This document shows positions 17,136 through 59,629 of a stretch of 64,000 bases of DNA, one piece after another. Source of the stretch: Ryuthela nishihirai (lineage: Eukaryota > Arthropoda > Arachnida > Araneae > Heptathelidae). The stretch is from positions 64,509,901 to 64,573,900 of the forward strand of contig JAWZYU010000009.1 in NCBI GenBank assembly GCA_038380435.1, read 5' to 3'. Each line of letters starts with the position of its first letter. The first letter of the stretch is position 1. The notes beneath the pieces are model-generated. The model had not been told where the DNA came from and made no database searches. It saw only the letters and a program-made list of their open reading frames with translations. Position numbers and translations under genes: made by a program.

Positions 17136-17800
17136 TAAATGCATAAAAGTGTTCAGAGGCAAAACAACCCCTCCCATAGAATGCATAAAAGTGTTCAGAG
17201 GCAAAACAACCCCTCCCATTGAATGCACAAAAGTGTTCAGAGGCAAAACAACCCCTTCCATTGAATGCATAAAAGTGTTCAGAGGTAAAACAACCCCTCC
17301 CATTGATTGCATAAAAGTGTTCAGAGGAAAAACAACCCTTCCCATTGAATGCATAAAAGTGTTCAGAGGTAAAACAACCCATCTCATTGAATGCATAAAA
17401 GTGTTCAGAGGTAAAACAACCCCTTCCATTGAATGCATAAATGTGTTCAGAGGTAAAACAACCCCTCCCACTGAATGCATAAATGTGTTCAGAGGCAAAA
17501 CAACCCCTCCCATTGAATGCATAAAAGTGTTCAGAGGTAAAACAACCCCTCCCATTGAATGCATAAAAGTGTTCAGAGGAAAAACAACCCTTCCCATTGA
17601 ATGCATAAAAGTGTTCAGAGGTAAAACAACCCATCTCATTGAATGCATAAAAGTGTTCAGAGGTAAAACAACCCATCCCATTGAACGCATAAAAGTGTTC
17701 AGAGGTAAAACAACCCATCCCATTGAATGCATAAAAGTGTTCAGAGGTAAAACAACCCATCTCATTGAATGCATAAAAGTGCCTCTCACATATAAAACAA
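17134..17800. repeat. 42-bp minisatellite derived from a SINE-1 tail
   Basis: About 16 units of 42 bp ('gcataaaagtgttcagaggt' plus 'aaaacaacccctcccattga' plus 'at'; phase markers at 17,521 and 17,563). The core 'ttcagaggtaaaacaaccc' is the SINE-1 3' end, and the last unit returns to a SINE-like end ('aagtgcctctcacatataaa'). Because 42 is a multiple of three and the unit lacks stops in several frames, long open frames run on both strands (281 to 295 codons with 14-residue periods such as ECIKVFRGKTTPPI). I treat these as non-coding. Confidence 0.95.
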
Positions 17801-19009: not shown

Positions 19010-22000
19010 AGTCCTTTAAGGAGAGGTGATTTTATTTCATCATTCCTTGATGCACGATTAGAAATCTTTTCAAAAAGAGTGATCTTATTTTATCATTCCT
19101 TGCTGTCTGGACTAGAAATCTTTTAAGGAGAGAGAGTGACCTTACCTTACCATTCCTTGCTGTCTGGACTAGAAATCCTTTAAGGAAAGAGAGTGATCTT
19201 ACCTTATCATTCCTTGCTGTCTGGGCTAGAAATCCTTTAAGGAGAAAGAGTGATCTTACCTTATAATACCTTGCTGTCTGGACTAAAAATCCTTTAAGGA
19301 GAGATAGCGATCTTATTTTATCATTCCTTGCTGTCAGGACTAGAAATCTTTTAACGAGAGAGCGATCCTACTTTATCATTTCTTGCTGTCTAGACTAGAA
19401 ACCCTTTAAGGTGAAAGAGCGATCTTATTTTATCATTCCTTGCTCTCAGGACTAGAAATTTTTTAACGAGAGAGCGATCTTACTTTATCATTCCTTGCTG
19501 TCTGGACTAGAAATCCTTTAAGGAAAGAGAGTGATCTCACCTTATCATTCCTTGCTGTCTGGACTAGAAATCCTTTAAGGAGAGAGAGCGATCTTATTTT
19601 ATCATTCCTTGCTGTCAAGACTAGAAATCTTTTAAGGAGAGAGAGCGATCTTATTTTATCATTCCTTGCTGTCAGGACTAGAAATCGTTTAAGGAGAGAG
19701 AGCGATCTTATTTTATCATTCCTTGCTGTCTAGACTAGAAATCATTTAAGGAGAGAGAGCGATCTTATTTTATCATTCCTTGCTGTCAGGACTAGAAATA
19801 CTTTAACGAGAGAGCGATCTTACTTTATCATTCCTTACTGTCTGGACTTGAAATCCTTTAAGGAGAGAGAGCGCTCTTATTTTATCATTCCCTGCTGTCA
19901 GGACTAGAAATCTTTTAACGAGAGAGCGATCTTACTTTATCATTTCTTGCTGTCTAGACTAGAAACTTGTTAAGGAAAGGGAGTGATCTTACCTTATCAT
20001 TCGTTGCTGCCAGGACTAGAAATCCTTTAAGGAGAGAGAGCGATCTTATTTTATCATTCCTTGCTGTCAGGACTAGAAATCTTTTAAGGAGAGAGCGATC
20101 TTACTTTATCATTCCTTGCTGTCTGGACTAGAAATCTTTTAAGGAGAGAGACTGATCTTACCTTATCATTCCTTGCTGTCTGGACTTGAAATCCTTTAAG
20201 GAGAGAGAGTGATCTTACCTTATCATTCCTTGCTGTCTGGACTAGAAATCCTTTAAGGAGAGAGATTGATCTTACCTTATCATTCCTTGCTGTCTGGACT
20301 AGAAATCCTTTAACGAGAGAGCGATCTTACCTTATCATTCCTTGCTGTCTGGACTAGAAATCCTTTAACGAGAGAGCGATCTTACTTAATCATTTCTTGC
20401 TGTCTAGACTAGAAATCCTTTAAGGAGAGAGAGTGATCTTACCTTATCTTTCCTTGCTGTCTGGACTAGAAATCCTTTAAGGAGAGAGAGCGATCTTATT
20501 TTATCATTCCTTGCTGTCAGGACTAGAAATCTTTTAACGAGAGAGCGATCTTACTTTACCATTTCTTGCTGTCTAGACTAGAAATCCTTTAAGGAGAGAG
20601 AGTGATCTTACCTTATCATTCGTTGCTGCCAGGACTAGAAATCCTTTAAGGAGAGAGAGGGATCTTATTTTATCATTCCTTGCTGTCAGGACTAGAAATC
20701 TTTTAAGGAGAGAGCGATCTTATTTATCATTCCTTGCTGTCTGGACTAGAAATCTTTTAAGGAGAGAGACTGATCTTACCTTATCATTCCTTGCTGTCTG
20801 GACTAGAAATCCTTTAACGAGAGAGAGCGATCTTATTTTATCATTCCTTGCTGTCTGGACTTGAAATCCTTTAAGGAGAGAGAGTGATCTTACCTTATCA
20901 TTCCTTGCTGTCTGGACTAGAAATCCTTTAAGGAGAGAGATTGATCTTACCTTATCATTCCTTGCTGTCTGGACTAGAAATCCTTTAACGAGAGAGCGAT
21001 CTTACTTAATCATTTCTTGCTGTCTAGACTAGAAATCCTTTAAGGAGAGAGAGTGATCTTACCTTATCATTCCTTGCTGTCTGGACTAGAAATCCTTTAA
21101 GGAGAGAGAGCGATCTTATTTTATCATTCCTTGCTGTCAGGACTAGAAATCTTTTAACGAGAGAGCGATCTTACTTTATCATTTCTTGCTGTCTAGACTA
21201 GAAATCCTTTAAGGAGAGAGAGTGATCTTACCTTATCATTCCTTGCTGTCTGGACTAAAAATCCTTTAAGGAGAGAGAGCGCTCTTATTTTATGATTCCC
21301 TGCTGTCAGGACTAGAAATCTTTTAACGAGAGAGCGATCTTACTTTATCATTTCTTGCTGTCTAGACTAGAAACCCTTTAACGAAAGGGAGTGATCTTAC
21401 CTTATCATTCGTTGCTGCCAGGACTAGAAATCCTTTAACGAGAGAGAGGGATCTTATTTTATCATTCCTTGCTGTCAGGACTAGAAATCCTTTAAGGAGA
21501 GAGCGATCTTACTTTATCATTCCTTGCTGTCTGGACTAGAAATCTTTTAAGGAGAGAGACTGATCTTACCTTATCATTCCTTGCTGTCTGGACTAGAAAT
21601 CCTTTAAGGAGAGAGAGCGATCTTATTTTATCGTTCCTTCCTGTCAGGACTAGAAATCTTTTAAGGAGAGAGCGATCTTACTTTATCATTTCTTGCTGTC
21701 TGGACTAGAAATTCTTTAAGGAGAGAGCGATCTTACTTTATCATTTTTTGCTGTCTGGACTAGAAATCCTTTAAGGAGAGAGCGATCTTACTTTATCATT
21801 TCTTGCTGTCTGGACAGAAATCCTTTAAGCAGATAGCGATCTTACTTTATCATTTCTTGCTGTCTGGACTAGAAATCCTTTAAGGAGATAGCGATCTTAC
21901 TTTATCATTTCTTGTTGTCTGGACTAGAAATCCTTTAAGCAGATAGCGATCTTACTTTATCATTTCTTGCTGTCTGGACTAGAAATCCTTTAAGGAGAGA

Positions 22001-25000
22001 GCGATCTTACTCTATCATTTCTTGCTGTCTGGACTAGAAATCCTTTAAGAAGAGAGCGATCTTACTCTATCATTTCTTGTTGTCTGGACTAGAAATCCTT
22101 TAAGGAGAGAGCGATATTACTTTATCATTTCTTGCTGTCTGGACAGAAATCCTTTAAGGAGAGAGCGATATTACTTTATCATTTCTTGCTGTCTGGACTA
22201 GAAATCCTTTAAGGAGAGAGCGATCTTACTTTATCATTTCTTGCTGTCTGGACTAGAAATCCTTTAAGGAGAGAGCGATCTTACTCTATCATTTCTTGCT
22301 GTCTGGACTAGAAATCCTTTAAGAAGAGAGCGATCTTACTCTATCATTTCTTGTTGTCTGGACTAGAAATCCTTTAAGGAGAGAGCGATATTACTTTATC
22401 ATTTCTTGCTGTCTGGACTAGAAATCCTTTAAGGAGAGAGCGATCTTACTCTATCATTTCTTGCTATCTGGACTAGAAATCCTTTAAGGAGAGAGACTGA
22501 TCTTACCTTATCATTCCTTGCTGTCTGGACTTGAAATCCTTTAAGGAGAGAGAGTGATCTTACCTTATCATTCCTTGCTGTCTGGACTAGAAATCCTTTA
22601 AGGAGAGAGATTGATCTTACCTTATCATTCCTTGCTGTCTGGACTAGAAATCCTTTAACGAGAGAGCGATCTTACCTTATCATTCCTTGCTGTCTGGACT
22701 AGAAATCCTTTAACGAGAGAGCGATCTTACTTAATCATTTCTTGCTGTCTAGACTAGAAATCCTTTAAGGAGAGAGAGTGATCTTACCTTATCTTTCCTT
22801 GCTGTCTGGACTAGAAATCCTTTAAGGAGAGAGAGCGATCTTATTTTATCATTCCTTGCTGTCAGGACTAGAAATCTTTTAACGAGAGAGCGATCTTACT
22901 TTACCATTTCTTGCTGTCTAGACTAGAAATCCTTTAAGGACAGAGAGTGATCTTACCTTATCATTCGTTGCTGCCAGGACTAGAAATCCTTTAAGGAGAG
23001 AGAGGGATCTTATTTTATCATTCCTTGCTGTCAGGACTAGAAATCTTTTAAGGAGAGAGCGATCTTATTTATCATTCCTTGCTGTCTGGACTAGAAATCT
23101 TTTAAGGAGAGAGACTGATCTTACCTTATCATTCCTTGCTGTCTGGACTAGAAATCCTTTAACGAGAGAGAGCGATCTTATTTTATCATTCCTTGCTGTC
23201 TGGACTTGAAATCCTTTAAGGAGAGAGAGTGATCTTACCTTATCATTCCTTGCTGTCTGGACTAGAAATCCTTTAAGGAGAGAGATTGATCTTACCTTAT
23301 CATTCCTTGCTGTCTGGACTAGAAATCCTTTAACGAGAGAGCGATCTTACTTAATCATTTCTTGCTGTCTAGACTAGAAATCCTTTAAGGAGAGAGAGTG
23401 ATCTTACCTTATCATTCCTTGCTGTCTGGACTAGAAATCCTTTAAGGAGAGAGAGCGATCTTATTTTATCATTCCTTGCTGTCAGGACTAGAAATCTTTT
23501 AACGAGAGAGCGATCTTACTCTATCATTTCTTGCTGTCTAGACTAGAAATCCTTTAAGGAGAGAGATTGATCTTACCTTATCATTCCTTGCTGTCTGGAC
23601 TAAAAATCCTTTAAGGAGAGAGAGCGCTCTTATTTTATGATTCCCTGCTGTCAGGACTAGAAATCTTTTAACGAGAGAGCGATCTTACTTTATCATTTCT
23701 TGCTGTCTAGACTAGAAACCCTTTAACGAAAGGGAGTGATCTTACCTTATCATTCGTTGCTGCCAGGACTAGAAATCCTTTAACGAGAGAGAGGGATCTT
23801 ATTTTATCATTCCTTGCTGTCAGGACTAGAAATCCTTTAAGGAGAGAGCGATCTTACTTTATCATTCCTTGCTGTCTGGACCAGAAATCTTTTAAGGAGA
23901 GAGACTGATCTTACCTTATCATTCCTTGCTGTCTGGACTAGAAATCCTTTAAGGAGAGAGAGCGATCTTATTTTATCGTTCCTTCCTGTCAGGACTAGAA
24001 ATCTTTTAAGGAGAGAGCGATCTTACTTTATCATTTCTTGCTGTCTGGACTAGAAATTCTTTAAGGAGAGAGCGATCTTACTTTATCATTTTTTGCTGTC
24101 TGGACTAGAAATCCTTTAAGGAGAGAGCGATCTTACTTTATCATTTCTTGCTGTCTGGACAGAAATCCTTTAAGCAGATAGCGATCTTACTTTATCATTT
24201 CTTGCTGTCTGGACTAGAAATCCTTTAAGGAGAGAGCGATCTTACTCTATCATTTCTTGCTGTCTGGACTAGAAATCCTTTAAGAAGAGAGCGATCTTAC
24301 TCTATCATTTCTTGTTGTCTGGACTAGAAATCCTTTAAGGAGAGAGCGATATTACTTTATCATTTCTTGCTGTCTGGACTAGAAATCCTTTAAGGAGAGA
24401 GCGATCTTACTCTATCATTTCTTGCTATCTGGACTAGAAATCCTTTAAGGAGAGAGCGATCTTACTTTATCATTTCTTGCTGTCTGGACTAGAAATCCTT
24501 TAAGCAGATAGCGATCGTACTTTATCATTTCTTGCTGTCTGGACTAGAAATCCTTTAAGGAGAGAGCGATCTTACTTTATCATTTCTTGCTGTCTGGACT
24601 AGAAATCCTTTAAGGAGAGAGCGATCTTACTTTATCATTTCTTGCTGTCTGGACTAGAAATCCTTTAAGGAGAGAGCGATCTTACTTTATCATTTCTTGC
24701 TGTCTGGACAGAAATCCTTTAAGGAGAGAGCGATATTACTCTATCATTTCTTGCCGTCTGGACCAGAAATCCTTTAAGGAGAGAGCGATATTACTTTATC
24801 ATTTCTTGCTGTCTGGACTAGAAATCCTTTAAGGAGAGAGCGATCTTACTCTATCATATCTTGCTGTCTGGACTAGAAATCCTTTAAGAAGAGAGTGATC
24901 TTACTCTATCATTTCTTGCTGTCTGGACTAGAAATCCTTTAAGGAGAGAGCGATATTACTTTATCATTTCTTGCTGTCTGGACTAGAAATCCTTTAAGGA

Positions 25001-25560
25001 GAGAGCGATCTTACTTTATCATTTCTTGCTGTCTGGACTAGAAATCCTTTAAGGAGAGAGCGATCTTACTTTATCATTTCTTGCTGTCTGGACAGAAATC
25101 CTTTAAGGAGAGAGCGATATTACTTTATCATTTCTTGCTGTCTGGACTAGAAATGCTTTAAGGAGAGAGCGATCTTACTTTATCATTTCTTGCTGTCTGG
25201 ACTAGAAATCCTTTAAGGAGAGAGCGATCTTACTCTATCATTTCTTGCTGTCTGGACTAGAAATCCTTTAAGAAGAGAGCGATCTTACTCTATCATTTCT
25301 TGCTGTCTGGACTAGAAATCCTTTAAGGAGAGAGCGATCTTACTTTATCATTTCTTGCTGTCTGGACTAGAAATCCTTTAAGCAGATAGCGATCTTACTT
25401 TATCATTTCTTGCTGTCTGGACTAGAAATCCTTTAAGGAGAGAGCGATCTTACTTTATCTTTTCTTGTTGTCAGGACTAGAAATCCTTTAAGGAGAGAGC
25501 GATCTTACTTTATCTTTTCTTGTTCTGGACTAGAAATCCTTTAAGGAGATAGCGATCTTA
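19010..25560. repeat. Satellite of 53-57-bp units, about 117 copies
   Basis: The unit reads 'gaaatcctttaaggagagag', 'cgatcttactttatcatttc', 'ttgctgtctggacta', with length variants from changes in the GA run and from loss of 'ta' in 'gactagaaat'. It contains the palindrome CCTTTAAGG. Monomer types alternate ('ggagagagag', 'acgagagag', 'gcagatag', 'gaagagag'). Two segments are near-identical at a constant offset of 2,345 bp: about 20,150-21,835 and 22,495-24,180. The left part is mixed; the right part (21,700 on) is dominated by the 'cgatcttactttatcatttc' type. Edges are degenerate (19,010-19,130 and 25,560-25,760). No open frame of note. Confidence 0.97.
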
Positions 25561-25760
25561 TTTTAATTATTTTATCGTTTTTAAGGCTATGAATTTTTAA
25601 GGAGATTTAAGGATTAACTAATTCAGTTTTATATAAAAGTACCTTATTTTACCATTCTCTTCTGTTATGAATTTCTTTAATGAGAAATAATGATCTTACT
25701 TTAGCATTCCTCACTGTCAAGAATAGGAGTTGTGTAAGGAGAGATTGCTCTTACTTTACA
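25561..25760. repeat. Degenerate right edge of the 56-bp satellite
   Basis: Units decay in steps: 'aaggagatttaaggattaac', 'gaatttctttaatgagaaat', 'gtgtaaggagagattgctct'. Edge decay is typical where unequal exchange no longer homogenises units. Confidence 0.75.
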
Positions 25761-31214: not shown

Positions 31215-31940
31215 GGTTTAGTTTGGGTTGATTTACCTCTTAGCGGCTCTTTTTTTGCACACAATGGGATAAACGAGCGGAAGATCCCATGGGCTCAGAG
31301 AAAGTTTAAGGGGATTGGTTTGGGTTGTTTTACCTCTGAGCGGCACTTTTTTGCACACAATGGACTAAATGGCCAGGTCACAAGGACCCCGAAGCTCAGA
31401 GAAGGTTGGGGGAGGGGACCCACTGGAACAGCTATTGGGAGACAGATGGTAGCCTCCCGTCAAGGCCATCCAGCATGTACTTTAACGTGCACAGAGTATG
31501 GTTCTCTCCCGCACACGTGGCCACGGCTTAACGTCCCATCCGACAGACGGTGGCCTTTCCAAGCCCATCGGTGTCTCCTACTGACCGTGGGCAGGGCGGG
31601 GAATTTTGCGGAGATGAATCTCAACGCTGACCCAGCTGGGACTCGAACCTGGGAACTACAGATTACGAGCCTGGCGCACTACCGACTGAGCCACCCCGCC
31701 CCAAGTTTAAGGGGATCCACTGGACAGTTGTTAAGAGACAGATGGTAGCCTCCCGTCAAAGCCAAGTAGTGTGTTCTTTAATGTACACATCCGCACACTG
31801 AACCACGTCTTAATATCCCATCTGAGGTACAGCAGTCTTTCAAAGTCCAGAGATAATTCTCAAAGCTGTCCAAGGTAAGACTCGAGACTGGGTGCTACGA
31901 GAACCTGGTGCGCTACGTATTGACCCCCTCCCCCCCCATC
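31215..31940 (-). mobile_element. Old SINE-1 split by a young SINE-1
   Basis: Left part 31,215-31,315 ('ttacctcttagcggctcttt', 'gggctcagagaaagtttaag'). Right part 31,717-31,940 ('ccactggacagttgttaaga', 'cacgtcttaatatcccatct', 'ctacgtattgaccccctccc'). They join into one diverged minus-strand SINE-1 when the young copy and one TSD are removed. Confidence 0.9.
31316..31702 (-). mobile_element. Young full-length SINE-1 nested in an old SINE-1, 14-bp TSD
   Basis: Exactly 387 bp, the same length as the 16,223 copy, in minus orientation from 'tggtttgggttgttttacct' to the head 'accgactgagccaccccgcc'. Perfect TSD AAGTTTAAGGGGAT at 31,302-31,315 and 31,703-31,716. This confirms the family's length and both ends independently. 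Confidence 0.96.
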
Positions 31941-32200
31941 CCATTGTCACTAGGACATCATTTTTCAGCTTGGACAGTACGAAAGACAGAACATTAATTC
32001 TGAATCGATAGTTTTCTGGATTGTAGAATCTCTCATTTCAGACCTCTTAATCAATGTGTAAATATATAAAAAGCAAAATATACCGTAATCACAATGATAT
32101 TATTAGTGCATGATTTTATCGTCATTTTAAGCAGTGTATGAAGTATCAGCAATCAAGAGGTGCCGACTAAATGCTGGAAAGCAATCGTTGCTTTCGATGC
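31941..32200. other. Non-coding sequence
   Basis: No feature recognised between the SINE and the degenerate repeat block. Confidence 0.4.
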
Positions 32201-33365
32201 CTCGTCATTTCTATTCCGTCACTCCGACCCTTATTTGACCTCAATGTGAAACCGGATCTGAAACTTCCTCTTATTCCTGAGTTCTGCTGCCTGAAATAGC
32301 CCTATTCAGACATTTTTCAGCTGTCCAGCACTGTTACATCGATAAGCCTTTGACCTTGAAGGACCCATCGTACCTACATTTTGGCATAATTTCTAAGTTC
32401 GTCGACTGAAAAATACTCCCAGAGATAATTCTCAAAGCTGTCCAAGGCAAGACTCGACTGTAATTTTTGCCCTCTACAACCATTAGATCAATATTTGATC
32501 TCTGGCCTCCCATTGAAATCCCATTGCAACCAAAGTTTAACAATATTTCTGATATATATAAATATTAATCAAAACACCCATAGGAACCAGTTTCAGATTT
32601 CTAATACTGGAAGATCGAAATTTCTCTTTTGACGTACAGGGATGCCTAGAAACCCCCATTTCTTAACCTACCCTACATCTAGGGCCCAAAATGCACCAGG
32701 ACACCAATTTTCAAATTTCTAGCACTGATAGATCAAGATTTGGCTTGTACATATCAATCAGTGCCTTCCACCATCTTGATTTTCAGTCTGTCAGTCCGAC
32801 CCCTATTTGACCTTGAACGCAACATCGGATCAAAAAAATCCCTCTTGTTTCTAAGTTCTAGCATATCAAACAGCCCTATTCAGCAATTTTTTAACTCTCA
32901 GAACCAGTATATCGAATTTGACCTTTGGCCTGAAAGAACCAATCGCATCCAAAATTTTGGATAATTTCCGAGTTCTATAACTCAAAGTACCTGCGAAGCA
33001 CCAATTTTTAGCCCTGTAACACTGGTAGATTTATATTTGACTTTTGACCTCAAAGGACCCATCGCATCCAAAATTTCGCAACATTTCTAAGATTTACGAC
33101 TCAAAATATCCCATGGAACCGATTTTTTAGCTCTCTAGAATTGAAAGATCTAATTTTTTCGAGAACGTCCGGATCTAAAATTTCATAACATTTTTAAGAT
33201 TCGCAACGTTTCTAGCATTCATAGATCATGGTTTGACCTCTATATGACCTTAAATGATACCCCGGAGGTCAACTTTTGGATTTTTTTCGAGATCTACGAC
33301 CCGGATTATCACTAAGCACAAATTTTCAGAGCCTTAGCGTTCCTGCATCATTCCCCCTGGCAGCC
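32200..33365. repeat. Degenerate 110-120-bp repeat block (ancestral type), copy 1
   Basis: Imperfect units share the string types 'gatcgaaatttgacctttga', 'cctagaaggacccatcg', 'aaaatttcttaacatttcta', 'agctctctagcactggtaga'. The part 32,225-32,420 is collinear with 43,010-43,205 ('tgaaacttcctcttatt', 'aatagccctatt', 'ggcataatttctaagtt'). The end (33,225-33,365, 'ctgcatcattccccctggca') is collinear with 51,170-51,350. Hence this is a dispersed block with a fixed beginning and end, not random drift. Confidence 0.8.
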
Positions 33366-33570
33366 GTTAGTTAGCCATCAGTCAATTAGTCAATCGCTCT
33401 CAAATAGCCTATATATATATTAAATATACACTGAGATGCCAGTTTATTAGCTACATTTTATTAATTAATTAGTTATTAGTTATTCATTACCAGTTTATTA
33501 GTAATTCATTATCTGTCTTTAATATGAGACACTGAGACACCATGCTCGTTTCGCCAATATTTATACTGCG
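33366..33570. other. AT-rich spacer
   Basis: TTAT/TTAG-rich low-complexity DNA ('attagttattagttattcat') before the 77-bp array. Confidence 0.6.
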
Positions 33571-36120
33571 CCCTTTTGTCTAGGTCTAGACTCTAGAAGC
33601 CCTTTTGTCCTTTTGTCCTCTCTTTAGTCCTTTCGTCTTCTCTTTAGCTATTTTGTCTAGGTCTAGACTCTAGAAGCCCTTTTGTCCTTTTGTCCTCTCT
33701 TTAGTCCTTTCGTCTTCTCTTTAGCCCTTTTGTCTAAGGTCTAGACTCTAGAAGCCCTTTTGTCCTTTTGTCTTCTCTTTAGTCCTTTCGTCTTCTCTTT
33801 AGCCCTTTTGTCGAGGTCTACACTCTAGAAGCCCTTTTGTCCTTTTGTCCTCTCTTTAGTCCTTTCGTCTTCTCTTTAGCCCTTTTGTCTAGGTCTAGAC
33901 ACTAGAAGCCCTTTTGTCCTTTTGTCCTCTCTTTAGTCCTTTCGTCTTCTCTTTAGCCCTTTTGTCGAGGTCTAGACTCTAGAAGCCCTTTTGTCCTTTT
34001 GTCCTCTCTTTAGTCCTTTCGTCTAAGGTCTAGACTCTAGAAGCCCTTTTGTCCTTTTGTCCTCTCTTTAGTCCTTTCGTCTTCTCTTTAGCCCTTTTGT
34101 CGAGGTCTAGACTCTAGAAGCCTTTTTGTCCTTTTGTCCTCTCTTTAATCCTTTCGTCTTCTCTTTAGCCCTTTTGTCTAGGTCTAGACTCTAGAAGCCC
34201 TTTTGTCCTTTTGTCCTCTCTTTAGTCCTTTCGTCTTCTCTTTAGCCCTTTTGTCTAGGTCTAGACTCTAGAAGCCCTTTTGCCCTTTTGTCCTCTCTTT
34301 AGTCCTTTCGTCTTCACTTTAGTCCTTTTGTCGAGGTCTAGACTCTGGAAGCCCTTTTGTCCTTTTGTCCTCTCTTTAGTCCTTTCGTCTTCTCTTTAGC
34401 CCTTTTGTCTAAGGTCTAGACTCTAGAAGCCCTTTTGTCCTTTTGTCCTCTCTTTAGTCCTTTCGTCTTCTCTTTAGCCCTTTTGTCGAGGTCTAGACTC
34501 TGGAAGCCCTTTTGTCCTTTTTTCCTCTCTTTAGTCCTTTCGTCTTCTCTTTAGCGCTTTTGTCTAAGGTCTAGACTCTAGAAGCCCTTTTGTCTTTTTG
34601 TCCTCTCTTTAGTCCTTTCGTCTTCTCTTTAGCACTTTTGTCTAGGTCTAGACACTAGAAGCCCTTTTGTCCTCTCTTTAGTCCTTTCGTCTTCTCTTTA
34701 GCCCTTTTGTCTAAGGTCTAGACTCTAGAAGCCCTTTTGTCCTCTCTTTAGTCCTTTCGTCTTCTCTTTAGCCCTTTAGACGAGGTCTAGACTATAGAAG
34801 CCCTTTTGTCCTTTTGTCCTCTCTTTAGTCCTTTCGTCTTCTCTTTAGCACTTTTGTCTAGGTCTAGACACTAGAAGCCCTTTTGTCCTTTTGTCCTCTC
34901 TTTAGTCCTTTCGTCTTCTCTTTAGCCCTTTTGTCTAAGGTCTAGACTCTAGAAGCCCTTTTGTCCTCTCTTTAGTCCTTTCGTCTTCTCTTTAGCCCTT
35001 TTGTCGAGGTCTAGACTCTAGAAGCCCTTTTGTCCTTTTGTCCTCTCTTTAGTCCTTTCGTCTTCTCTTTAGCCCTTTTGTCGAGGTCTAGAATCTAGAA
35101 GCCCTTTTGTCCTTTTGTCCTCTCTTTAGTCCTTTCGTCTTCTCTTTAGCCCTTTTGTCGAGGTCTAGACTCTAGAAGCCCTTTTGTCCTTTTGTCCTCT
35201 CTTTAATCCTTTCGTCTTCTCTTTAGCCCTTTTGTCTAGGTCTAGACTCTAGAAGCCCTTTTGTCCTTTTGTCCTCTCTTTAGTCCTTTCGTCTTCTCTT
35301 TAGCCCTTTTGTCTAGGTCTAGACACTAGAAGCCCTTTTGTCCTTTTGTCCTCTCTTTAGTCCTTTCGTCTTCTCTTTAGCCCTTTTGTCGAGGTCTAGA
35401 CTCTAGAAGCCCTTTTGTCCTTTTGTCCTCTCTTTAGTCCTTTCGTCTTCACTTTAGCCCTTTTGTCGAGGTCTAGACTCTAGAAGCCCTTTTGTCCTTT
35501 TGTCCTCTCTTTAGTCCTTTCGTCTTCTCTTTAGCCCTTTTGTCGAGGTCTAGACTCTAGAAGCCCTTTTGTCCTTTTGTCCTCTCTTTAGTCCTTTCGT
35601 CTTCTCTTTAGCCCTTTTGTCTAGGTCTAGACTCTAGAAGCCCTTTTGTCCTTTTGTCCTCTCTTTAGTCCTTTCGTCTTCTCTTTAGCCCTTTTGTCTA
35701 GGTCTAGACTCTAGAAGCCCTTTTGTCCTTTTGTCCTCTCTTTAGTCCTTTCGTCTTCTCTTTAGCCCTTTTGTCTAGGTCTAGACTCTAGAAGCCCTTT
35801 TGTCCTTTTGTCCTCTCTTTAGTCCTTTCGTCTTCTCTTTAGCCCTTTCGTCGAGGTCTAGACTCTAGAAGCCCTTTTGTCCTTTTGTCCTCTCTTTAGT
35901 CCTTTTGTCCTCTCTTTAGTCCTTTCGTCTTCTCTTTAGCCCTTTTGTCTAGGTCTAGACTCTAGAAGCCCTTTTGTCCTTTTGTCCTCTAGTCCTTTCG
36001 TCTTCTCTTTAGCCCTTTTGTCTAGGTCTAGACTCTAGAAGCCCTTTTGTCCTTTTGTCCTCTAGTCCTTTCGTCTTCTCTTTAGCCCTTTTGTCTAGGT
36101 CTAGGTCCAGGTTCTACACT
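33570..36120. repeat. 77-bp satellite array, about 33 copies
   Basis: The unit is 'gcccttttgtccttttgtcc', 'tctctttagtcctttcgtct', 'tctctttagcccttttgtct', 'aggtctagactctagaa' (77 bp; markers at 35,563 and 35,640). Internally it is built from shorter CTTTTGTC/CTTTAG(T/C)C sub-repeats of about 8-20 bp. The plus strand is strongly pyrimidine-rich apart from the GGTCTAGACTCTAGAAG segment. Variants: tctagg, tctaagg or tcgagg before TCTAGAC; some units lack one 'ccttttgt'. No coding. Confidence 0.97.
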
Positions 36121-42965: not shown

Positions 42966-43340
42966 AGAAATCAATTCTAGAACTCTTCATTTCCAGCTGT
43001 CATTCCTATCCCTATTTGATCTTGAACATGACACCGGATCTGAAACTTCCTCTTATTTCTGAGCTCTGCTAATTGAAATAGCCCTATTGAGATATATTTC
43101 AGCTCTCCAGTACTGCTGTATCGAAATTTGGCCTTTGACCTTGAAGGACCCTCGCATAAAAAATTTGGCATAATTTCTAAGTTTGACGACTCAAAATTGC
43201 CTCAGGCACCAATTTGTAACTCTGGTAGATTGATATATACCTTTGACCTCGAAGGTCTCATTGCAACCAATATTCAGAAATATTTCTAATATATACTGCC
43301 CAAAATACCCCTTGGAACAATGTTTTAGCTCTCTAGCACT
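42966..43340. repeat. Degenerate 110-120-bp repeat block, copy 2 (left part)
   Basis: Three spaced units with 'ctttgaccttgaaggaccc' (about 43,133), 'ctttgacctcgaaggtct' (43,241) and 'cttagacctagaaggatccc' (43,359), spacing 108-118 bp. Collinear with 32,225-32,700. It flows directly into the 70-bp satellite. Confidence 0.85.
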
Positions 43341-46300
43341 GGTAGATCGAAATTTGCCCTTAGACCTAGAAGGATCCCTCGAATCCATCATTTCTTAAAC
43401 TTTCCTACATCTAGAGCCCGAAATTTGCCCTTTGACCTAGAATGATCCCTCGAATCCATCATTTCTTAAACCTTCCTATATCTCAAGCCCGAAATTTCCC
43501 CTTTGACCTAGAAAGATCCCTCGAATCGATCATTTCTTAATGTTTCCTACATCTAGAGCCTGAAATTTGCCCTTTGACCTAGAAAGATCCCTCGAATCGA
43601 TCATTTCTTAACGTTTCCTACATCTAGAGCCCGAAATTTCCCCTTTGACCTAGATGGATCCCTCGAATCGATTATTTCTTAACGTTTCCTACATCTAGAG
43701 CCCGAAATTTCCCCTTTGACTAGAAGGTCCCTCGAATCGACCATTTCTTAACGTTTCCTACATCTAGTGCCCGAAATTTCCCCTTTAACCTAGAAGGATT
43801 TTTCGAATCAATCATTTATTAACGTTTCCTACATCTAGAGCCCGAAATTTCCCCTTTGACTAGAAGGTCCCTCGAATCGATCATATCTTAACGATTCCTA
43901 CGTCTAGAGCCCGAAATTTGCCCTTAGACCTAAAAGGATCCCTCGAATCGATCATTTCTAACGTTTCCTACATCTAGAGCCCGACATTTGCCTTAGACCT
44001 AGAAGGATCCCTCGAATCCATCATTTCTTAACGTTTCCTACATCTAGAGCCCGACATTTGCCTTAGACCTAGCAGGATCCCTCGAATCCATCATTTCTTA
44101 ACGTTTCCTACATCTAGAACCCGAAATTTGCTGTTCGATTCCCAGCTGGGTCACCGTTGAGATTTATCTGCGCAAAATTCCACGCCCTGCCACGGTCAGT
44201 AGGGGGACACCGATGGGCTTGGAAAGGCCGCCGTCCGTCGGATGGGACGTTAAGCCGTGGCCCCGTGTGTGGGAGAGCCATACCCTGCGCACGTTAAAGA
44301 ACACGCTCGATGGCCTTGACGGGAGGCTACCATCTGTTTCCCAACAGCTGTTCCAGTGGGTCCCCTCCCCCAACTTTCTCTGAGCCTTCAGGGTCCATGT
44401 GACCTGGCCATTTAGCCCATTGTGTGCAAAAAAGTGCCGCTCAGAAGTAAAAAGCCCAACCCAACCCGAAATTTGCTCTTTGACCTAGAAGGATCCCTGG
44501 AATCCATCATTTCTTAAAGTTTCCTACATCTAGAGCCCGGAATTTTCCCTTTGACTAGAAGGATCCCTCGAATCCATCATTTCTTAACGTTTCCTACATC
44601 TAGAGCCCGAAATTTCCCCTTTGACTAGAAAGTCCCTCGAATCCATCATTTCTTAAAGTTTCCAATATCTAGAGCCCGAAATTTGCCCTTTGACTAGAAG
44701 GATCCCTCGAATCGATCATTCATTAAAGGTTCCTACATCTAGAGCCCGAAATTTGCTCTTTGACCTAGAAGGATCCCTCGAATCCATCATTTCTTAAAGT
44801 TTCCTACATCTAGAGCCCGAAATTTGCCCTTTGACTAGAAGGATCCCTCGAATCGATCATTTCTTAACGTTTCCTACATCTAGAGCCCGAAATTTCCCCT
44901 TTGACTAGAAAGTCCCTCGAATCCATCATTTCTTAACGTTAACTACATCTAGAGCCCGAAATTTCCCCTTTGACTAGAAAGTCCCTCGAATCCATCATTT
45001 CTTAAAGTTTCCTACATCTAGAGCCCGAAATTTCCCCTTTGACTAGAAGGATCCCTCGAATCGATCATTCATTAAAGGTTCCTACATCTAGAGCCCGAAA
45101 ATTGCTCTTTGACCTAGAAGGATCCCTCGAATCCATCATTTCTTAAGGTTTCCTACATCTAGAGCCCGAAATTTGCCCTTTGACTAGAAGGATCCTTCGA
45201 ATCGATCATTTCTTAACGTTTCCTACATGTAGAGCCCGAAATTTGCCCTTAGTAACCTAGAAGGATCCCTCGAATCCATCATTTCTTAAAGTTTCCTACA
45301 TCTACAGGCCGAAATTTGCTCTTTGACCTAGAAGGATCCCTCTAATCCATCATTTCTTAAAGTTTCCTACATCTAGTGCCCGAAATTTCCCATTTGACTA
45401 GAAAGTCCCTCGAATTCATCATTTCGTATAGTTTCCTACATCTAGAGCCCGAAATTTGCTCTTTGACCTAGAAGGATCCCTCGAATCCATCATTTCTTAA
45501 AGTTTCCTACATCTAGAGCCCGAAATTTGCCCTTTGACTAGAAGGATCCCTCGAATCGATCATTTCTTAACGTTTCCTACATCTAGAGCCCGAAATTTCC
45601 CCTTTGACTAGAAAGCCCCTCGAATCCATCATTTCTTAACGTTAACTACATCTAGAGCCCGAAATTTCCCCTTTGACTAGAAAGTCCCTCGAATCCATCA
45701 TTTCTTAAAGTTTCCTACATCTAGAGCCCGAAATTTGCCCTTTGACTAGAAGGATCCCTCGAATCGATCATTCATTAAAGGTTCCTACATCTAGAGCCCG
45801 AAATTTGCTCTTTGACCTACAAGGATCCCTCGAATCCATCATTTCTTAAGGTTTCCTACATCTAGAGCCCGAAATTTGCCCTTTGACTAGAAGGATCCCT
45901 CGAATCGATCATTTCTTAACGTTTCCTACATCTAGAGCCCGAAATTTGCCCTTAGTAACCTAGAAGGATCCCTCGAATCCATCATTTCTTAAAGTTTCCT
46001 ACATCTACAGGCCGAAATTTGCTCTTTGACCTAGAAGGATCCCTCTAATCCATCATTTCTTAAAGTTTCCTACATCTAGTGCCCGAAATTTCCCATTTGA
46101 CTAGAAAGTCCCTCGAATCCATCATTTCGTAAAGTTTCCTACATCTAGAGCCCGAAATTTGCTCTTTGACCTAGAAGGATCCCTCGAATCCATCATTTCT
46201 TAAAGTTTCCTACATCTAGAGCCCGAGATTTGCCCTTTGACAAGAAGGTTCCCTCGAATCCATCATTTCTTAACGTTTCCTACATCTAGAGCCTGAAATT

Positions 46301-49300
46301 TGCCCTCTTACTAGAAGGATCCCTCGAATCCATGATTTCTTAAAGTTTCCAACATCTAGAGCCCGAAATTTCCCCTTTGACTAGAAGGATCCCTCGAATC
46401 CATCATTTCTTAACGTTTCCTACATCTAGAGCCTGAAATTTGCCCTTTGACTAGAACGATCCCTCGAATCCATCATTTCTTAACGTTTCCTACATCTAGA
46501 TCCCGAAATTTCCCCTTTCACTGGAAGGATCCCTCGAATCCATCATTTCTTAACGTTTCCTACCTCTAGATCCCGAAATTTGCTCTTTGACCTAGAAGGA
46601 TCCCTCGAATCCATCATTTCTTAAAGTTTCCTACATCTAGAGCCCGAAATTTGCCCTTTGACTAGAAAGATCCCTCGAATCCATCATTTCTTAAAGTTTC
46701 CTACATCTAGAGCCCGAAATTTGCTCTTTGACCTAGAAGGATCCCTCGAATCCATCATTTCTTAAAGTTTCCTACATCTAGAGCCCGAAATTTGCCCTTT
46801 GACAAGAAGGATCCCTCGAATCCATCATTTCTTAACGTTTCCTATATCTAGAGCCTGAAATTTGCCCTTTGACTTAGAAGGATCACTCGAATCCATCATT
46901 TCTTAAAGTTTCCTACATCTAGAGCCCGAAATTTGCCCTTTGACCTAGAAGAATCCCTCGAATCTATCATTTCTTAAAGTTTCTTACATTTAGAGCCCGA
47001 AATTTGCCGATTGACTTAGATGAATCCCTCGAATCCATCATTTCCTAAAGTTCCCTATATCTAGAGCCCGAAATTTCCCCTTTGACTAGAAAGTCCCTCG
47101 AATCCATCATTTCTTAAAGTTTCCTACATCTAGAGCCCGAAATTTGCTCTTTGACCTAGAAGAATCCCTCGAATCCATCATTTCTTAATGTTTCCTACAT
47201 CTAGAGCCCGAAATTTGCTCTTTGACGTAGAAGGATCTCTAATCCATCCTTTCTTAAAGTTTCCTACATCTAGAGCCCGAAATTTGCCCTTTGACTATTA
47301 GGATCCCTCGAATCCATTATTTCTTAACGTTTCCTACATCTAGAGCCCGAAATTTGCTCTTTGGCATAGAAGGATCCCTCGAATCCATCCTTTCTTAAAG
47401 TTTCCTACATCTAGAGCCCGAAATTTGTCCTTTGACTAGAAGGATCTCTCGAATCCATCATTTCTTAACGTTTCCTACATCTAGAGCCTGAAATTTGCCC
47501 TTTGACTTAGAAGGATCCCTCGAATCCATCATTTCTTAAAGTTTCCTACATCTAGAGCCCGAAATTTCCGCTCTGACTAGAAGGATCCCTCGAATCCATC
47601 ATTTCCTAACGTTTCCTACATCTAGAGACTGAAATTTGCCCTTTGACCTGGAATAATCCCTCGAATCCATCATTTCTTAAAGTTTCCTACATCTAGAGCC
47701 CGAAATTTGCCCTTTGACTAGAAGGATCACTCGAATCCATCATTTCTTAAAGTTTCCTACATCTAGAGCCCGAAATTTGCCCTTTGACCTAGAAGAATCC
47801 CTCGAATCTATCATTTCTTAAAGTTTCTTACATTTAGAGCCCGAAATTTGCCGATTGACTTAGATGAATCCCTCGAATCTATCGTTTCTTAACGTTTCCT
47901 ATATCTAGAGCCCGAAATTTTCCCTTTGACTAGAAAGTCCCTCGAATCCATCATTTCTTAAAGTTTCATACATCTAGAGCCCGAAATTTGCTCTTTTACC
48001 TAGAAGGATCCCTCGAATCCATCATTTCTTAAAGTTTCCTAAATCTAGAGCCCGAAATTTGCCCTTTGACCTAGAATAATCCCTCGAATCCATCATTTCT
48101 TAAAGTTTCCTACATCTAGAGCCCGAAATTTGCCCTTTGACTAGAAGGATCCCTCGAATCCATCATTTCTTAAACTTTCCTACATCTAGAGCCCAAAATT
48201 TGCTCTTTGACCTAGAAGGATCTCTAATCCATCCTTTCTTAAAGTTTCCTACGTCTGGAGTCCGAAATTTCCCGTTTGACTAGAAGGATCCCTCGAATCC
48301 ATCATTTCTTAACGTTTCCTACATCTAGAACCTGAAATTTGCCCTTTGACTAGAAGGATTGCTCGAATCCATCATTTCTTAACGTTTCCTACATCTAGAG
48401 CCCGAAATTTCCCCTTTGACTAGAAAGTCCCTCGAATCCATCATTTCTTAAAGTTTCCTACATCTAGAGCCCGAAATTTGCTCTTTGACCTAGAAGAATC
48501 CCTCGAATCCATCATTTCTTAATGTTTCCTACATCTAGAGCCCGAAATTTGCTCTTTGACGTAGAAGGATCTCTAATCCATCCTTTCTTAAAGTTTCCTA
48601 CATCTAGAGCCCGAAATTTGCCCTTTGACTATTAGGATCCCTCGAATCCATTATTTCTTAAAGTTTCCTAAATCTAGAGCCCGAAATTTGCCCTTTGACC
48701 TAGAATAATCCCTCGAATCCATCATTTCTTAAAGTTTCCTACATCTAGAGCCCGAAATTTGCCCTTTGACTAGAAGGATCCCTCGAATCCATCATTTCTT
48801 AAAGTTTCCTACATCTAGAGCCCGAAATTTGCTCTTTGACCTAGAAGGATCTCTAATCCATCCTTTCTTAAAGTTTCCTACATCTGGAGTGCGAAATTTC
48901 CCCTTTGACTAGAAGGATCCCTCGAATCGATCATTTCTTAACGTTTCCTACATCTAGAGCCCGAAATTTCCCCTTTGACTAGAAAGTCCCTCGAATCCAT
49001 CATTTCTTAACGTTAACTACATCTAGAGCCCGAAATTTCCCCTTTGACTAGAAAGTCCCTCGAATCCATCATTTCTTAAAGTATCCTACATCTAGAGCCC
49101 GAAATTTGCCCTTTGACTAGAAGGATCCCTCGAATCGATCATTCATTAAAGGTTCCTACATCTAGAGCCCAAAATTTGCTCTTTGACCTAGAAGGATCCC
49201 TCGAATCCATCATTTCTTAAGGTTTCCTACATCTAGAGCCCGAAATTTGCCCTTTGACTAGAAGGATCCCTCGAATCCATCATTTCTTAAAGTTTCCTAC

Positions 49301-51135
49301 ATCTACAGGCCGAAATTTGCTCTTTGACCTAGAAGGATCCCTCTAATCCATCATTTCTTAAAGTTTCCTACATCTAGTGCCCGAAATTTCCCATTTGACT
49401 AGAAAGTCCCTCGAATCCATCATTTCGTAAAGTTTCCTGCATCTAGAGCCCGAAATTTGCCCTTTGACCGAGAAGGATCCCTCGAATCCATCATTTCTTA
49501 AAGTTTCCTACATCTAGAGCCCGAGATTTGCCCTTTGACAAGAAGGTTCCCTCGAATCCATCATTTCTTAACGTTTCCTACATCTAGAGCCTGAAATTTG
49601 CCCTCTGACTAGAAGGATCCCTCGAATCCATGATTTCTTAAAGTTTCCAACATCTAGAGCCCGAAATTTCCCCTTTGACTAGAAAGTCCCTCGAATCCAT
49701 CTTTTCTTAAAGTTTCCTACATCTAGAGCCCGAAATTTGCCCTTTGACTAGAAGGATCCCACGAATCCATCATTTCTTAACGTTTCCTACATCTAGAGCC
49801 TGAAATTTGCCCTTTGACTAGAAGGATCCCTCGAATCCATCATTTCTTAACGTTTCCTACATCTAGATCCCGAAATTTCCCCTTTCACTGGAAGGATCCC
49901 TCGAATCCATCATTTCTTAACGTTTCCTACCTCTAGATCCCGAAATTTGCTCTTTGACCTAGAAGGATCCCTCGAATCCATCATTTCTTAAAGTTTCCTA
50001 CATCTAGAGCCCGAAATATCCCCTTTGACCAGAAAGTCCCTCGAATCCATCATTTCTTAAAGTTTCCTACATCTAGAGCCCGAAATTTGCCCTTTGACTA
50101 GAAGGATCCCTCGAATCCATCATTTCTTAAAGTTTCCTACATCTAGAGCCCGAAATTTCCCCTTTGACTAGAAAGTCCCTCGAATCCATCCTTTCTTAAA
50201 GTTTCCTACATCTAGAGCCCGAAATTTGCTCTTTGACCTAGAAGGATCCCTCGAATCCATCATTTCTTAAAGTTTCCTACATCTAGAGCCCGAAATTTGC
50301 TCTTTGACTTAGAAGGATCTCTAATCCATCCTTTCTTAAAGTTTCCTACATCTAGAGCCCGAAATTTTCCCTTTGACTAGAAAGGCCCTCGAATCCATCA
50401 TTTCTTAAAGTTTCCTACATCTAGAGCCCGAAATTTGCCCTTTGACTAGAAGGATCCCTCGAATCCATCATTTCTTAACGTTTCCTACATCTAGAGCCCG
50501 AAATTTGCTCTTTGACCTAGAAGGATCCCTCGAATCCATCATTTCTTAAAGTTTCCTTCATATAGAGCCAGAAATTTGCCCTTTGAATAGAAGGATCCCT
50601 CGAATCCATCATTTCTTAACGTTTGCTACATCTAGAGCCTGAAATTTCCCCTTTGACTAGAAGGATCCCTCGAATCCATCATTTCCTAACGTTTCCTACA
50701 TCTAGAGCCCGAAATTTGCCCTTTGACTTAGAAGGATCCCTCATATCGATCATTTCTTAAAATTTCCTACATCTAGAGCCCGAAATTTGCCCTTTGACCT
50801 AGAATAATCCCTCGAATCCATCATTTCTTAAAGTTTCCTACATCTAGAGCCCGAAATTTGCCCTTTGACTAGAAGGATCCCTCGAATCCATCATTTCTTA
50901 AAATTTCCTACATCTAGAGCCCGAAATTTGCCCTTTGACCTAGAATAATCCCTCGAATCCATCATTTCTTAAAGTTTCCTACATCTAGAGCCCGAAATTT
51001 GCCTTTTGACCTAGAAGAATCCCTCGAATCCATCATTTCTTAAAGTTTCTCACATTTAGAGCCCGAAATTTGCCGATTGACTTAGATGAATCCCTCGAAT
51101 CTATCATTTCTTAACGTTTCCTATATCTAGAGCTC
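43341..51135. repeat. 69-71-bp satellite, about 106 copies
   Basis: The unit is 'gaaatttgccctttgacta', 'gaaggatccctcgaatccat', 'catttcttaaagtttcctac', 'atctagagccc' (69-71 bp, depending on gactag or gacctag and small indels). Higher-order structure: a block of about ten units is duplicated at an offset of 702-703 bp (markers 'cgttaactac' at 44,941 and 45,643; 'cccttagtaacc' at 45,248 and 45,951), and a larger segment recurs about 3.3-3.4 kb later (marker at 49,015). One SINE-1 interrupts it at 44,133. Both edges pass into the 110-120-bp degenerate repeat. Confidence 0.97.
44133..44464 (+). mobile_element. SINE-1 inserted in the satellite, 13-bp TSD
   Basis: 332 bp, starting at the B box ('gttcgattcccagctggg') and so 5'-truncated through the tRNA head, ending 'aaaaagcccaacccaa'. 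TSD CCCGAAATTTGCT at 44,120-44,132 and 44,465-44,477, which is satellite sequence; excising one copy restores a normal 70-bp unit. Confidence 0.96.
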
Positions 51136-51571
51136 GAAACAGCCCCGGACAAAAATTTTCAAACTTCTACTACTAATAGATCAAGATTTGACCTCTACGC
51201 GACCTCTATTTGACCTTGAAGGACACGTGAGAGGTCAAATTTCGAACATTTTCGCGATTTACGATTAGGATTTCCCTATGTGCAAATATTCAATGGCTCT
51301 ACCATTTCTGCATCATAGTTAGAGTAATCCCCTGTCAGCCCTCACTCACTCCCAATGGTCTGTATATCTAACACTGGAAATCAATCGGTGCCTTAATCAC
51401 CGATTGATTTCCAGTGATCCTTCAGCACTGGTTGATCTGTATTTGACTTTTGACCTCGAAGACCCAGCAGATCTCAAATTTCACCACATTTCTGAGATCT
51501 ACAATTCAAAACACCCTCAGGAACCAATTTTTTCGCTCTCTAGCATTGATAGATCTAAATTTCACCTTTGA
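51136..51571. repeat. Degenerate 110-120-bp repeat block, copy 2 (right part)
   Basis: After the last 70-bp unit ('atctagagctcgaaacagc') the longer unit resumes ('cggacaaaaattttcaaact', 'aatagatcaagatttgacct'). 51,170-51,350 matches 33,225-33,365 through 'ctgcatcat' and 'cccctgtcagccctcac'. A perfect hairpin follows at 51,372. Units then continue to the LTR. Confidence 0.8.
51372..51416. repeat. Perfect 19-bp-stem hairpin
   Basis: CACTGGAAATCAATCGGTG, loop CCTTAAT, then the exact reverse complement. It lies about 25 bases after the conserved end of the degenerate block ('cagccctcactcac'). Confidence 0.9.
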
Positions 51572-51575
51572 CCTT

Positions 51576-52529
51576 TGTCGTGACCTCTAGTTCGGATCCT
51601 GTCCGACTGGGTCAGATGTGATGTCCCTTGTGTTCGCATCCTGTCAGACTGTGACAGATGTCGTGACCCGTTGTTCGTATCCTGTCCGACTGTGACAGAT
51701 GTGATGACCCAGTCCACACAGGAGAGAGGGACGATGATGAAATTACTTAAGAAGGATTCACTTCGGTGAATTCACAGATTCGCGTGTTTTTACGCCCGTG
51801 CCACTGTATGCCTCAACTGTACTGCGTTGGATGAAGAATAACAATGGTCCATCTATTACTGCACGAGAGTTATATAGGGACGACGCAATTTATTTATAAT
51901 ATGTACAGCTACGTGCTGGAAATGAACTCCACTCCATGGGCCTTTGCTGCTTCACACTGCGGTTCTTTCTGAATCCACAAAACTACTATCAAATTCACCG
52001 CTCAACTCCTGAGCCTTTGCTGCTGCAAATATTACTATAATGAGGTGGAGAATTGCACACTCTGCGAATTCTCACTTTACAGACCTCAAAACCTCGGTGA
52101 AAGGATTACCACCTTTGCCTACACTGTGGTTCCTTCTGAATCCACAAAAATAAAACAGATTCACATCAGAATCTAGATACCCTCCTGTAATCACACCCTC
52201 ACTTCAAGGGTTAATTTGAGAAAGGCGTCGTCCTTTTGATGCGTGTCGAAGCGACCTCTTCGCTTGATAGCTAACGCACAGACTGATTCTTCCAACTCCT
52301 TCCCCTAGCCTCGTGCGCGAACTTTCGCGCCGCGGGCTAGTTAGTCATATACGGCATAAACAACTGCTGGCATTCGTCACCACTTTCCCGGAGCAGCTTT
52401 AGACCCGAAAAACAACAACAGTGAATCATCCCAGCACAAACATTTCCAACACATAAAAATATATACAATAATATAATACAGCAAAAATATACAATAAATA
52501 AATAAATATAAAATTCTAGGGACATGACA
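51576..52529. mobile_element. Solo LTR, 954 bp, 5-bp TSD
   Basis: Begins TGTCGTGACC and ends GGGACATGACA, so it has TG...CA ends with a short terminal inversion (TGTCGTG/CATGACA). The 5-bp direct repeat ACCTT flanks it (51,571-51,575 and 52,530-52,534). Removing the element and one ACCTT restores 'cctttgaccttgaagaatcc', a normal piece of the degenerate repeat. Inside are a three-copy tandem (51,583-51,718), a TATATA at about 51,870 and AATAAATA-type signals near the 3' end. No second LTR, primer-binding site or internal region follows, so it is a solo LTR left by LTR-LTR recombination. The superfamily is not determinable. Confidence 0.85.
51583..51718. repeat. Three-copy tandem of about 42 bp inside the solo LTR
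   Basis: Units begin 'gttcggatcctgtccgactg', 'gttcgcatcctgtcagactg' and 'gttcgtatcctgtccgactg', each followed by a 'gacagatgt' type string. Being near the LTR 5' end (U3 region) these could be enhancer-like repeats; orientation is unproven. Confidence 0.85.
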
Positions 52530-52735
52530 ACCTTGAAGAATCCTCCCCCCCCCCCCCCGATCTAAAATTTCTTAACATTTCTGAGTTCTGCAACCAATTT
52601 TTCACGTTTCTAGCACTCATAGATCAAAATTTGACCTCTACGTGACCTCCAGTTGACCTGGAAGGATACGTCGGAAGTCAAGTTTCGAACGTTTTCGGAC
52701 TGTAGTGGCTCTTTACTTAACAATGAGTTTGTTTT
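52530..52735. repeat. Degenerate repeat after the solo LTR
   Basis: Resumes at 'accttgaagaatcc', then a run of about 15 C, then 'aaaatttcttaacatttctg' and 'tagatcaaaatttgacctct'. It is the same family as 32.2-33.4 kb. Confidence 0.75.
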
Positions 52736-58707: not shown

Positions 58708-58854
58708 GCTGGAACAGGGTTCAGTAATTCTGGCAAGACTTCTTGTAAAAATACGAGGTACGTTCTCCCTTTCGGTCGGCCTGGCAGAAGGTACGGCCCA
58801 ATCATGGAGGATTCCAGCCCCAAACATTTATAGAGAAGCGCCACTGGTACGAGT

Positions 58855-58922
58855 GTGGACATATGGCGTGCGGTTTACTGTGGCGTGCGGTTTACTGTGA
58901 CATATGGCGTGCGGTTTACTGT
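58855..58922. repeat. Three tandem copies of a 17-28-bp unit
   Basis: 'ggcgtgcggtttactgtg' occurs three times, two of them preceded by 'acatat'. Located just after the first-Asp block on the coding strand. Confidence 0.9.
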
Positions 58923-59629
58923 GGGTATTAAAAATGCCCTCACGTGTAAAGGTGAATTCGTCAGTGAATAAGACATGTGAATCAAAGTCCGGTTTCGCTG
59001 CAGTCTGCTGCAGGAACCACTGTGCAAAATCCACACGAGACTGATAATCTATGTGTGTTAAGGCGTGCACCCTATGTGCATGGTAGAGGTGTAATCGTTC
59101 GTCTCGTAGAACTCGCCACATCGTCGATTGGGGCACACTTACGGCATGAGAAATTGCTCGCGTGCTACATTCGGGACGATCTCCAACCCTACGTAGAATT
59201 TCCTCTGTAACACGTGGCGTCCTCACTCTCCTTGCACGCCCTGTATCCTGCAAGCCGCTGACAAAGGAGCCATTTCGCACAGATACCGGTGTAATCGCTG
59301 AAAGGTTTTACGATCAGGCACACGTCTGATCGGAAAGCGCTGCCGGTACTGTCTTTGGGCTTCCCTCAGATTCCCGTCCGCAGCACCATATGTGAAATGC
59401 ATGTCCGCCTTCTACTGATTCGTGAAACAATCCATCCGTTCTGCAATCCACGGTATAACTGACGACGAGTGCAAAAACCAGCACTTATAAGTGTTCACTG
59501 AAAAGCGCCCTCTAGCGCTTCACCGCTGGAGTTCCGACCATGCATTGTATGACGAAAAGTGCTTGTTTAGGTGTGTTCTATCACCCCTTAAAGTTTGGCC
59601 CAAGAGTTTTGAATCACCCTGTATATATA

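Follow-up and report, generated by a model that had tools for sequence, protein, structure and literature searches.

The window analyzed here is a stretch of 64,000 nucleotides from Ryuthela nishihirai and carries an array of approximately 70-bp tandem repeats, which TRF places at positions 43348–44131 and 44465–51139. Segmentation by wrap-around alignment gives 106 complete 70-bp monomers (11 + 95) with an interruption of about 330 bp between the two parts; the roughly 100-fold expansion that the original prediction had proposed is thus borne out. Segment 1 (43348–44132, plus strand) consists of 11 complete monomers and one partial monomer and is diverse and un-homogenised. Segment 2 (44465–51134, plus strand) holds the other 95 complete monomers. 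All results pertain to one genome (3.11 Gb) and one assembly.

The array is flanked by parts of a repeat element, termed copy A, which is one copy of a dispersed, approximately 700-bp transposon-like element with a terminal hairpin and five diverged units, u1–u5. To the left, on the plus strand, are a degenerate end hairpin and units u1–u3 (42966–43347), recognized by a BLAST match to 32201–32692, by a profile of the units and by the family alignment. The units u1, u2 and u3 lie at 43015–43117, 43118–43229 and 43230–43347, all on the plus strand. Directly after the last monomer is a single u4 tail (51135–51180, plus strand, profile match), followed by u5 and the right end of copy A (51181–51366, plus strand; BLAST, alignments and profile). 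A truncated further copy is found head to tail with copy A at 51372–51575 on the plus strand. It starts with a hairpin/palindrome at 51372–51416 (−22.1 kcal/mol, z = −10.6), continues with a u3-like unit, shows 81% identity to 33020–33157 and also has a left-end match. The boundaries originally drawn around the locus hold overall, with the refinement that 51372–51575 belongs to this second, truncated copy. A 41-bp tandem repeat of about 3 copies (51576–51710) directly adjoins it.

Two further stretches of the element in the window are unexpanded, both on the plus strand. Fragment C (52559–52700; BLAST and profile) has a truncated u4 and then u5. Block B (32171–33365; BLAST, alignment, profile and tree) displays u1–u4 and then u1–u5 with a truncated u4, the first u4 being at 32614–32733; an unexpanded parent block predicted near 32,200–33,365 is present here, and it is really two element copies head to tail. 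Block B (32182–33365) shows lags of 117–119 bp (z = 3.3–3.4), the strongest lag being 415 (z = 5.4). A 77-bp array at 33570–36104 begins about 200 bp after block B, and its first 131 bp match only that array within the window.

The profile was built from seven units of approximately 118 bp from both blocks, the block B u4 included. Matches are found at 32234–33338, 43015–43423, 51064–51304, 51435–51554 and 52531–52700, all on the plus strand and with scores of 18–105 bits, versus best scores of 3.5–7.9 bits in 10 windows shuffled in 2-base blocks. This confirms that the array merges on both sides into degenerate units of about 118 bp, and that the edge repeats are alignable beyond chance. Three more weak pieces (5.2–8.7 bits, one on the minus strand) were left uncounted. 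Some units are nearest to a neighbour and not to the unit of the same number, e.g. u2 of copy A to the second u3 of block B, and thus the numbering of u1–u3 follows order more than sequence. Unit identity is clear for u4 of copy A and of the first block B copy, and for u5.

The array is nested inside u4. Block B aligns by BLAST with the left flank at 32201–32692 and with the right flank at 32616–32750, and the doubly matched part, 32616–32692 (77 bp), corresponds to the 70-bp unit. Together with the profile, this overlap upholds the reading of the 70-bp unit as the first approximately 70 bp of the 118-bp unit. When the block B u4 is taken out of the profile, 106 array matches remain (10.6–32.6 bits, all on the plus strand), and of these only the match at 51064–51180 reaches the second half of the profile, to profile position 122. 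The tail after the last monomer is similar to the tail of the first block B u4 with z = 11.0 and to every other unit tail with z ≤ 5.8; u5 follows it in normal order, and the tail of u3 precedes the first monomer. Since the u4 tail is present once at the right edge and is followed by u5, the 45–50 bp absent from the monomers were not lost, and what had been described as missing is missing from the monomers only. A founder formed by deletion of these 45–50 bp between neighbouring 118-bp units, with later expansion of the shortened unit, agrees with the absence of the tail from all array matches except the last, but such a deletion would have removed the u4 tail, which stands between the last monomer and u5, while the u3 tail stands before the first monomer. 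An extra duplication would be required to fit it, and we regard a deletion as improbable. The retained tail, together with the empty sites described below, fits a tandem duplication of 70 bp and not a deletion of 45–50 bp.

A genome search with two monomers gave at least 86 matches, 48 inside the array and 38 elsewhere. Among the matches listed, the 38 outside the array are each single and partial, and in this one search no second array of the 70-bp unit is found among them. When the flanks are joined with the array removed, one alignment runs from u3 through a single u4 into the tail in 29 of the 38 dispersed copies; the other nine, without a single spanning alignment, are broken or partial. 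TRF detected no array of the 70-bp unit in the 38 loci; locus L013 has two rows of period 68–69 approximately 1.5 kb away, a different unit by eye. The proposed genome search for unexpanded parents therefore finds them as empty sites, and the parent, first taken for an older repeat array beside the satellite, is instead a dispersed transposon-like element with the array inside u4 of one copy. That the array might be ancestral in the family, the single-u4 copies being collapsed arrays, is a reading to which we give almost no credence: collapse to one unit would mimic an empty site, but 29 spanning copies as well as block B and fragment C are without the array, and u4 aligns over its full length of about 118 bp with the profile of the other units. 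Beside one dispersed copy (L059:1997–3001) is a 128-bp tandem repeat (7.8 copies, 96%), the printed unit of which is unrelated to u4.

The family alignment consists of 20 rows, i.e. copy A, block B twice and 17 loci (L010, L015 and L019 were left out, their best match not spanning), and displays a sharply delimited element, about 700 bp long, with five units inside it. The block B u4 was rejected as the only parent sequence, being about 25% diverged, and the family alignment was used instead. The end hairpin, allowing up to 2 mismatches, is found at 605 sites in the 3.11-Gb genome, with 0 sites for the reversed control. The first 30 of the list, which is not a random sample, comprise 22 exact hairpins and 8 with one mismatch. 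These copies carry up to five units each (L042 has none), and no arrays are found in these 30 loci, picked by hairpin and not by u4, the largest tandem being of 2.7 copies at periods of 25 bp or more. A left flank (about 25 bp shown) is common to 16 of the 30 hairpin-sampled copies (L029–L058), so that one subfamily either took additional sequence along when it moved or was multiplied as part of another repeat. Against the family majority, the flanks of copy A deviate in 99 of 505 columns (20%); the median divergence of the monomers from the array consensus is 5.7%. The array thus probably arose later than the element copy.

The ends of the element were compared with those of Helitrons, which begin with 5′ TC, end with 3′ CTRR, have a hairpin shortly upstream of the 3′ end and insert between A and T without a target duplication. 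The minus strand of the element ends in CTAG, with an inner stem GGTGCC/GGCACC 9 nt before it, and the other end reads TCTAATA, by eye, in 7 of 32 printed rows (4/17 and 3/15). The stem of the end hairpin runs to the very end as one palindrome, which is taken to be unusual for Helitrons. On the outer side of the CTAG end, 26 of 30 copies have A (T when read on the minus strand), as do 10 of the 14 that do not belong to the common-flank subfamily. A T follows all seven clear other ends, a weak point since the same T was part of what made these ends look alike. Features named for HINEs in PMC7492417 include sub-terminal inverted repeats, a short microsatellite and an end palindrome. The element displays the end palindrome and a GTCA-like tail at the other end; no sub-terminal inverted repeats were seen by eye. 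With the TC end clear in 7 of the 32 printed ends, the element may be called Helitron-like at most.

At the left edge of the array u4 starts with GATCGAAATTT; at the right edge, 70 bp further in the unit, the sequence is CTCGAAACAG. The word common to both is CGAAA (5 bp), at 43348 and 51135. A short shared word had been predicted at the junction and is present, but as CGAAA and not as cgaaat; a sixth base (TCGAAA) is common only if the right-edge T is ancestral, and the family majority at this position is C. Under a base-composition model, a random junction would share at least five bases with a chance of approximately 0.006. Among 19 other copies, as read from the printed rows, 2 have CGAAA at the u4 start, 10 have it at +70 (one copy is gapped there) and 0 have it at both positions. 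The junction word CTACATCTAGAGCCCGAAATTTG, allowing up to 3 mismatches, is matched 102 times in the window, each time within the array; 50 other loci give one 3-mismatch site, in L012, which is read as an ordinary u4 (+70) site. The founder fits slippage or joining between the two 5-bp repeats. We infer this step, as the edge bases may have changed later; the left-edge CGAAA, for its part, could have been copied from array monomers.

Taking edges, tail and empty sites together, we consider it very likely that the array is a satellite born in place inside u4 of one old copy of the dispersed element, by a duplication at a 5-bp repeat and subsequent growth. The old copy would have carried CGAAA at the u4 start and again 70 bp further on. 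Misalignment at CGAAA, by replication slippage, joining or unequal exchange, would have duplicated the intervening 70 bp. From the resulting tandem pair, unequal exchange or conversion would then have built up an array of about 106 monomers. Later, a SINE would have entered at a distance of 11 monomers from the left end, with re-amplification continuing on its right side in blocks, the clearest of which is 11 monomers long. What the sequence shows directly is that the array is nested in u4, that the tail is retained, that empty sites exist, that the SINE has a target duplication and that 11 monomers are repeated as a segment; slippage, unequal exchange and the succession of events in time are deduced. 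A circle of the 70-bp segment (eccDNA) formed at CGAAA, copied by rolling circle and returned into u4 by homologous recombination would be expected to leave the same edges, and rolling-circle routes are among those proposed in PMC12628747 for satellites derived from Helitrons. This route is unneeded, and the monomers of segment 1 differ pairwise by 12% (8.4 of 70), so that they retain no sign of a single burst of near-identical copies; we judge it unlikely.

Over the whole array the mean pairwise difference between monomers is 7.0 of 70. Eight runs of 4–11 monomers are repeated with 97.5–99.3% identity. The clearest, in segment 2, is a segmental duplication of 11 monomers at lag 10 with 99.0% identity, and it is longer than the longest run (5) in 200 shuffled orders; the other seven runs (4–5 monomers) do not exceed the shuffled maximum. 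A false expansion or false junctions in the assembly might be suspected of a repetitive array that is seen in the assembly alone, but the monomers are non-identical (the 7.0 differences just given) and the SINE has a clean target duplication; an artefact of this kind is highly improbable. The array contains 32 TGACCT words, considered for a possible regulatory role, and no perfect direct repeat of them. Viral contigs scanned with the monomer and one parent word gave no match. The 70-bp array most likely has no function beyond that of a local repeat.

The interruption is a SINE-like insertion (44133–44462, plus strand), recognized by its target-site duplication and family matches, which splits one monomer. 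The duplication is 15 bp, AACCCGAAATTTGCT, at 44118–44132 and 44463–44477; 28 further matching pieces of the SINE family are found in the window, and one relative overlaps an Rfam tRNA match at 31628–31700. As the interruption is a SINE with a target duplication, the two array parts are one array with one split monomer. Another SINE copy (16818–17134) has within its 3′ tail the start of a 42-bp array of 16 copies (17111–17781), which ends with a similar SINE-tail sequence; this is possibly a second tandem array in the window seeded at a dispersed element.

The mean nearest-neighbour distance is 4.0 in the 11 left monomers versus 1.8 or less per 11-monomer block of segment 2, a measure of homogenisation picked once the array had been inspected. 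To the left of the SINE, monomers show 3–7 differences from the nearest segment 2 monomer, the first 15 to the right of it 0–2 differences from their nearest, and the last 15 at the right edge 0–4 (mean 1.4). The left edge is thus an un-homogenised layer, and the change falls at the SINE. Tentatively, the SINE, 11 monomers from the left end, may have acted as an exchange barrier that isolated the founder-side edge from re-amplification, a reading that we hold to be possible though somewhat less than probable. It rests on the drop in homogenisation at the insertion and on the right edge, which has no insertion and is homogenised nearly to the last monomers. Either this is so, or the edge had been neglected before the SINE arrived there; array edges are expected to diverge (PMC6562703). 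If the barrier is real and the SINE cut the founder-side edge off from re-amplification, the locus would keep a layered record of element, founder duplication, first array, SINE and second amplification.

Founder-like monomers had been expected at the edges, an expectation that fails. Similarity to the family consensus shows no edge gradient over all monomers (rho = −0.04), and similarity to the nearby block B copy shows none either (rho = 0.03, the first monomer being two bases short); the last two monomers have close copies (1–4 differences) at two interior places. One pair of ancestral states is seen in 6 of 11 monomers of segment 1 versus 2 of 95 in segment 2, to which little weight is given as the pair was chosen after seeing the data. 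A tree of 124 rows, with few columns and many open forks, splits the 106 monomers plus the first block B u4 from 17 other u4 copies with branch support of 100/96. Within it the block B u4 falls among the monomers on a long branch (0.25), and thus monophyly of the monomers from a single founder relative to block B lacks support.

Other repeats in the window are a 55-bp array at 19012–25565, with about 117 copies and a 169-bp higher-order period, and a Tc1-like transposase fragment at 58828–59307 on the minus strand. The fragment has an HTH_Tnp_Tc3_2 match just under the Pfam cut-off and is 64–65% identical to two Araneus ventricosus proteins.

For most satellites, to our knowledge, the origin can no longer be traced, the founder and the sequence around it having been overwritten or lost. 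At the present locus one can still read the host element, its unexpanded sisters, the founder junction and, as a marker of later time, the SINE, and with all four in one place, models of satellite birth and homogenisation become testable there. By way of the unexpanded copies the birth point can be read almost to the base. The locus further suggests that a transposon copy may come to seed a satellite when point changes happen, by chance, to give it a short word for a second time at a suitable distance. Birth of minisatellites from short direct repeats was reportedly proposed by Haber and Louis in 1998 and by Taylor and Breden in 2000. A literature search by words, not by sequence, found no paper on this 70-bp repeat.

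In human, minisatellite birth from stretches flanked by direct repeats of 5–10 bp, also within transposons, is described in PMC3389668 and is also named in PMC2820488. Common to the human transposon tandem repeats and the present array are direct repeats of about 5–10 bp bounding the duplication and the derivation of arrays from transposons (PMC3389668). The array described here is bounded by, and in phase with, the short direct repeat CGAAA, and unexpanded loci run through one unit. It differs from those human cases, as presented there, in having about 106 copies at one locus and many unexpanded copies as empty sites.

PMC12628747, PMC9659126, PMC7492417 and PMC6947457 review satellites that derive from Helitron-type internal repeats. 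DINE-TR1 in Drosophila (PMC6947457) and Cg_HINE in oyster (PMC7492417) are examples of satellites from Helitron/Helentron internal repeats and share with the present case the link of a satellite to a dispersed element that has an end palindrome and, internally, tandem-like units. Unlike these, the new monomer here is a 70-bp sub-part of a 118-bp unit, and the parent is only Helitron-like. For the miDNA4 MITE satellites of Xenopus (Scalvenzi and Pollet, as told in PMC12628747), direct repeats of at least 5 bp are proposed to change the internal copy number, and a short repeat likewise appears to be involved here. In that account miDNA4 has a single monomer or arrays of variable copy number, whereas the analysis of the present genome turned up one copy that carries a long array. 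That tandem arrays can arise from short direct repeats within transposons is known already, and the array in u4 is a new, well-resolved and unusually clear case.
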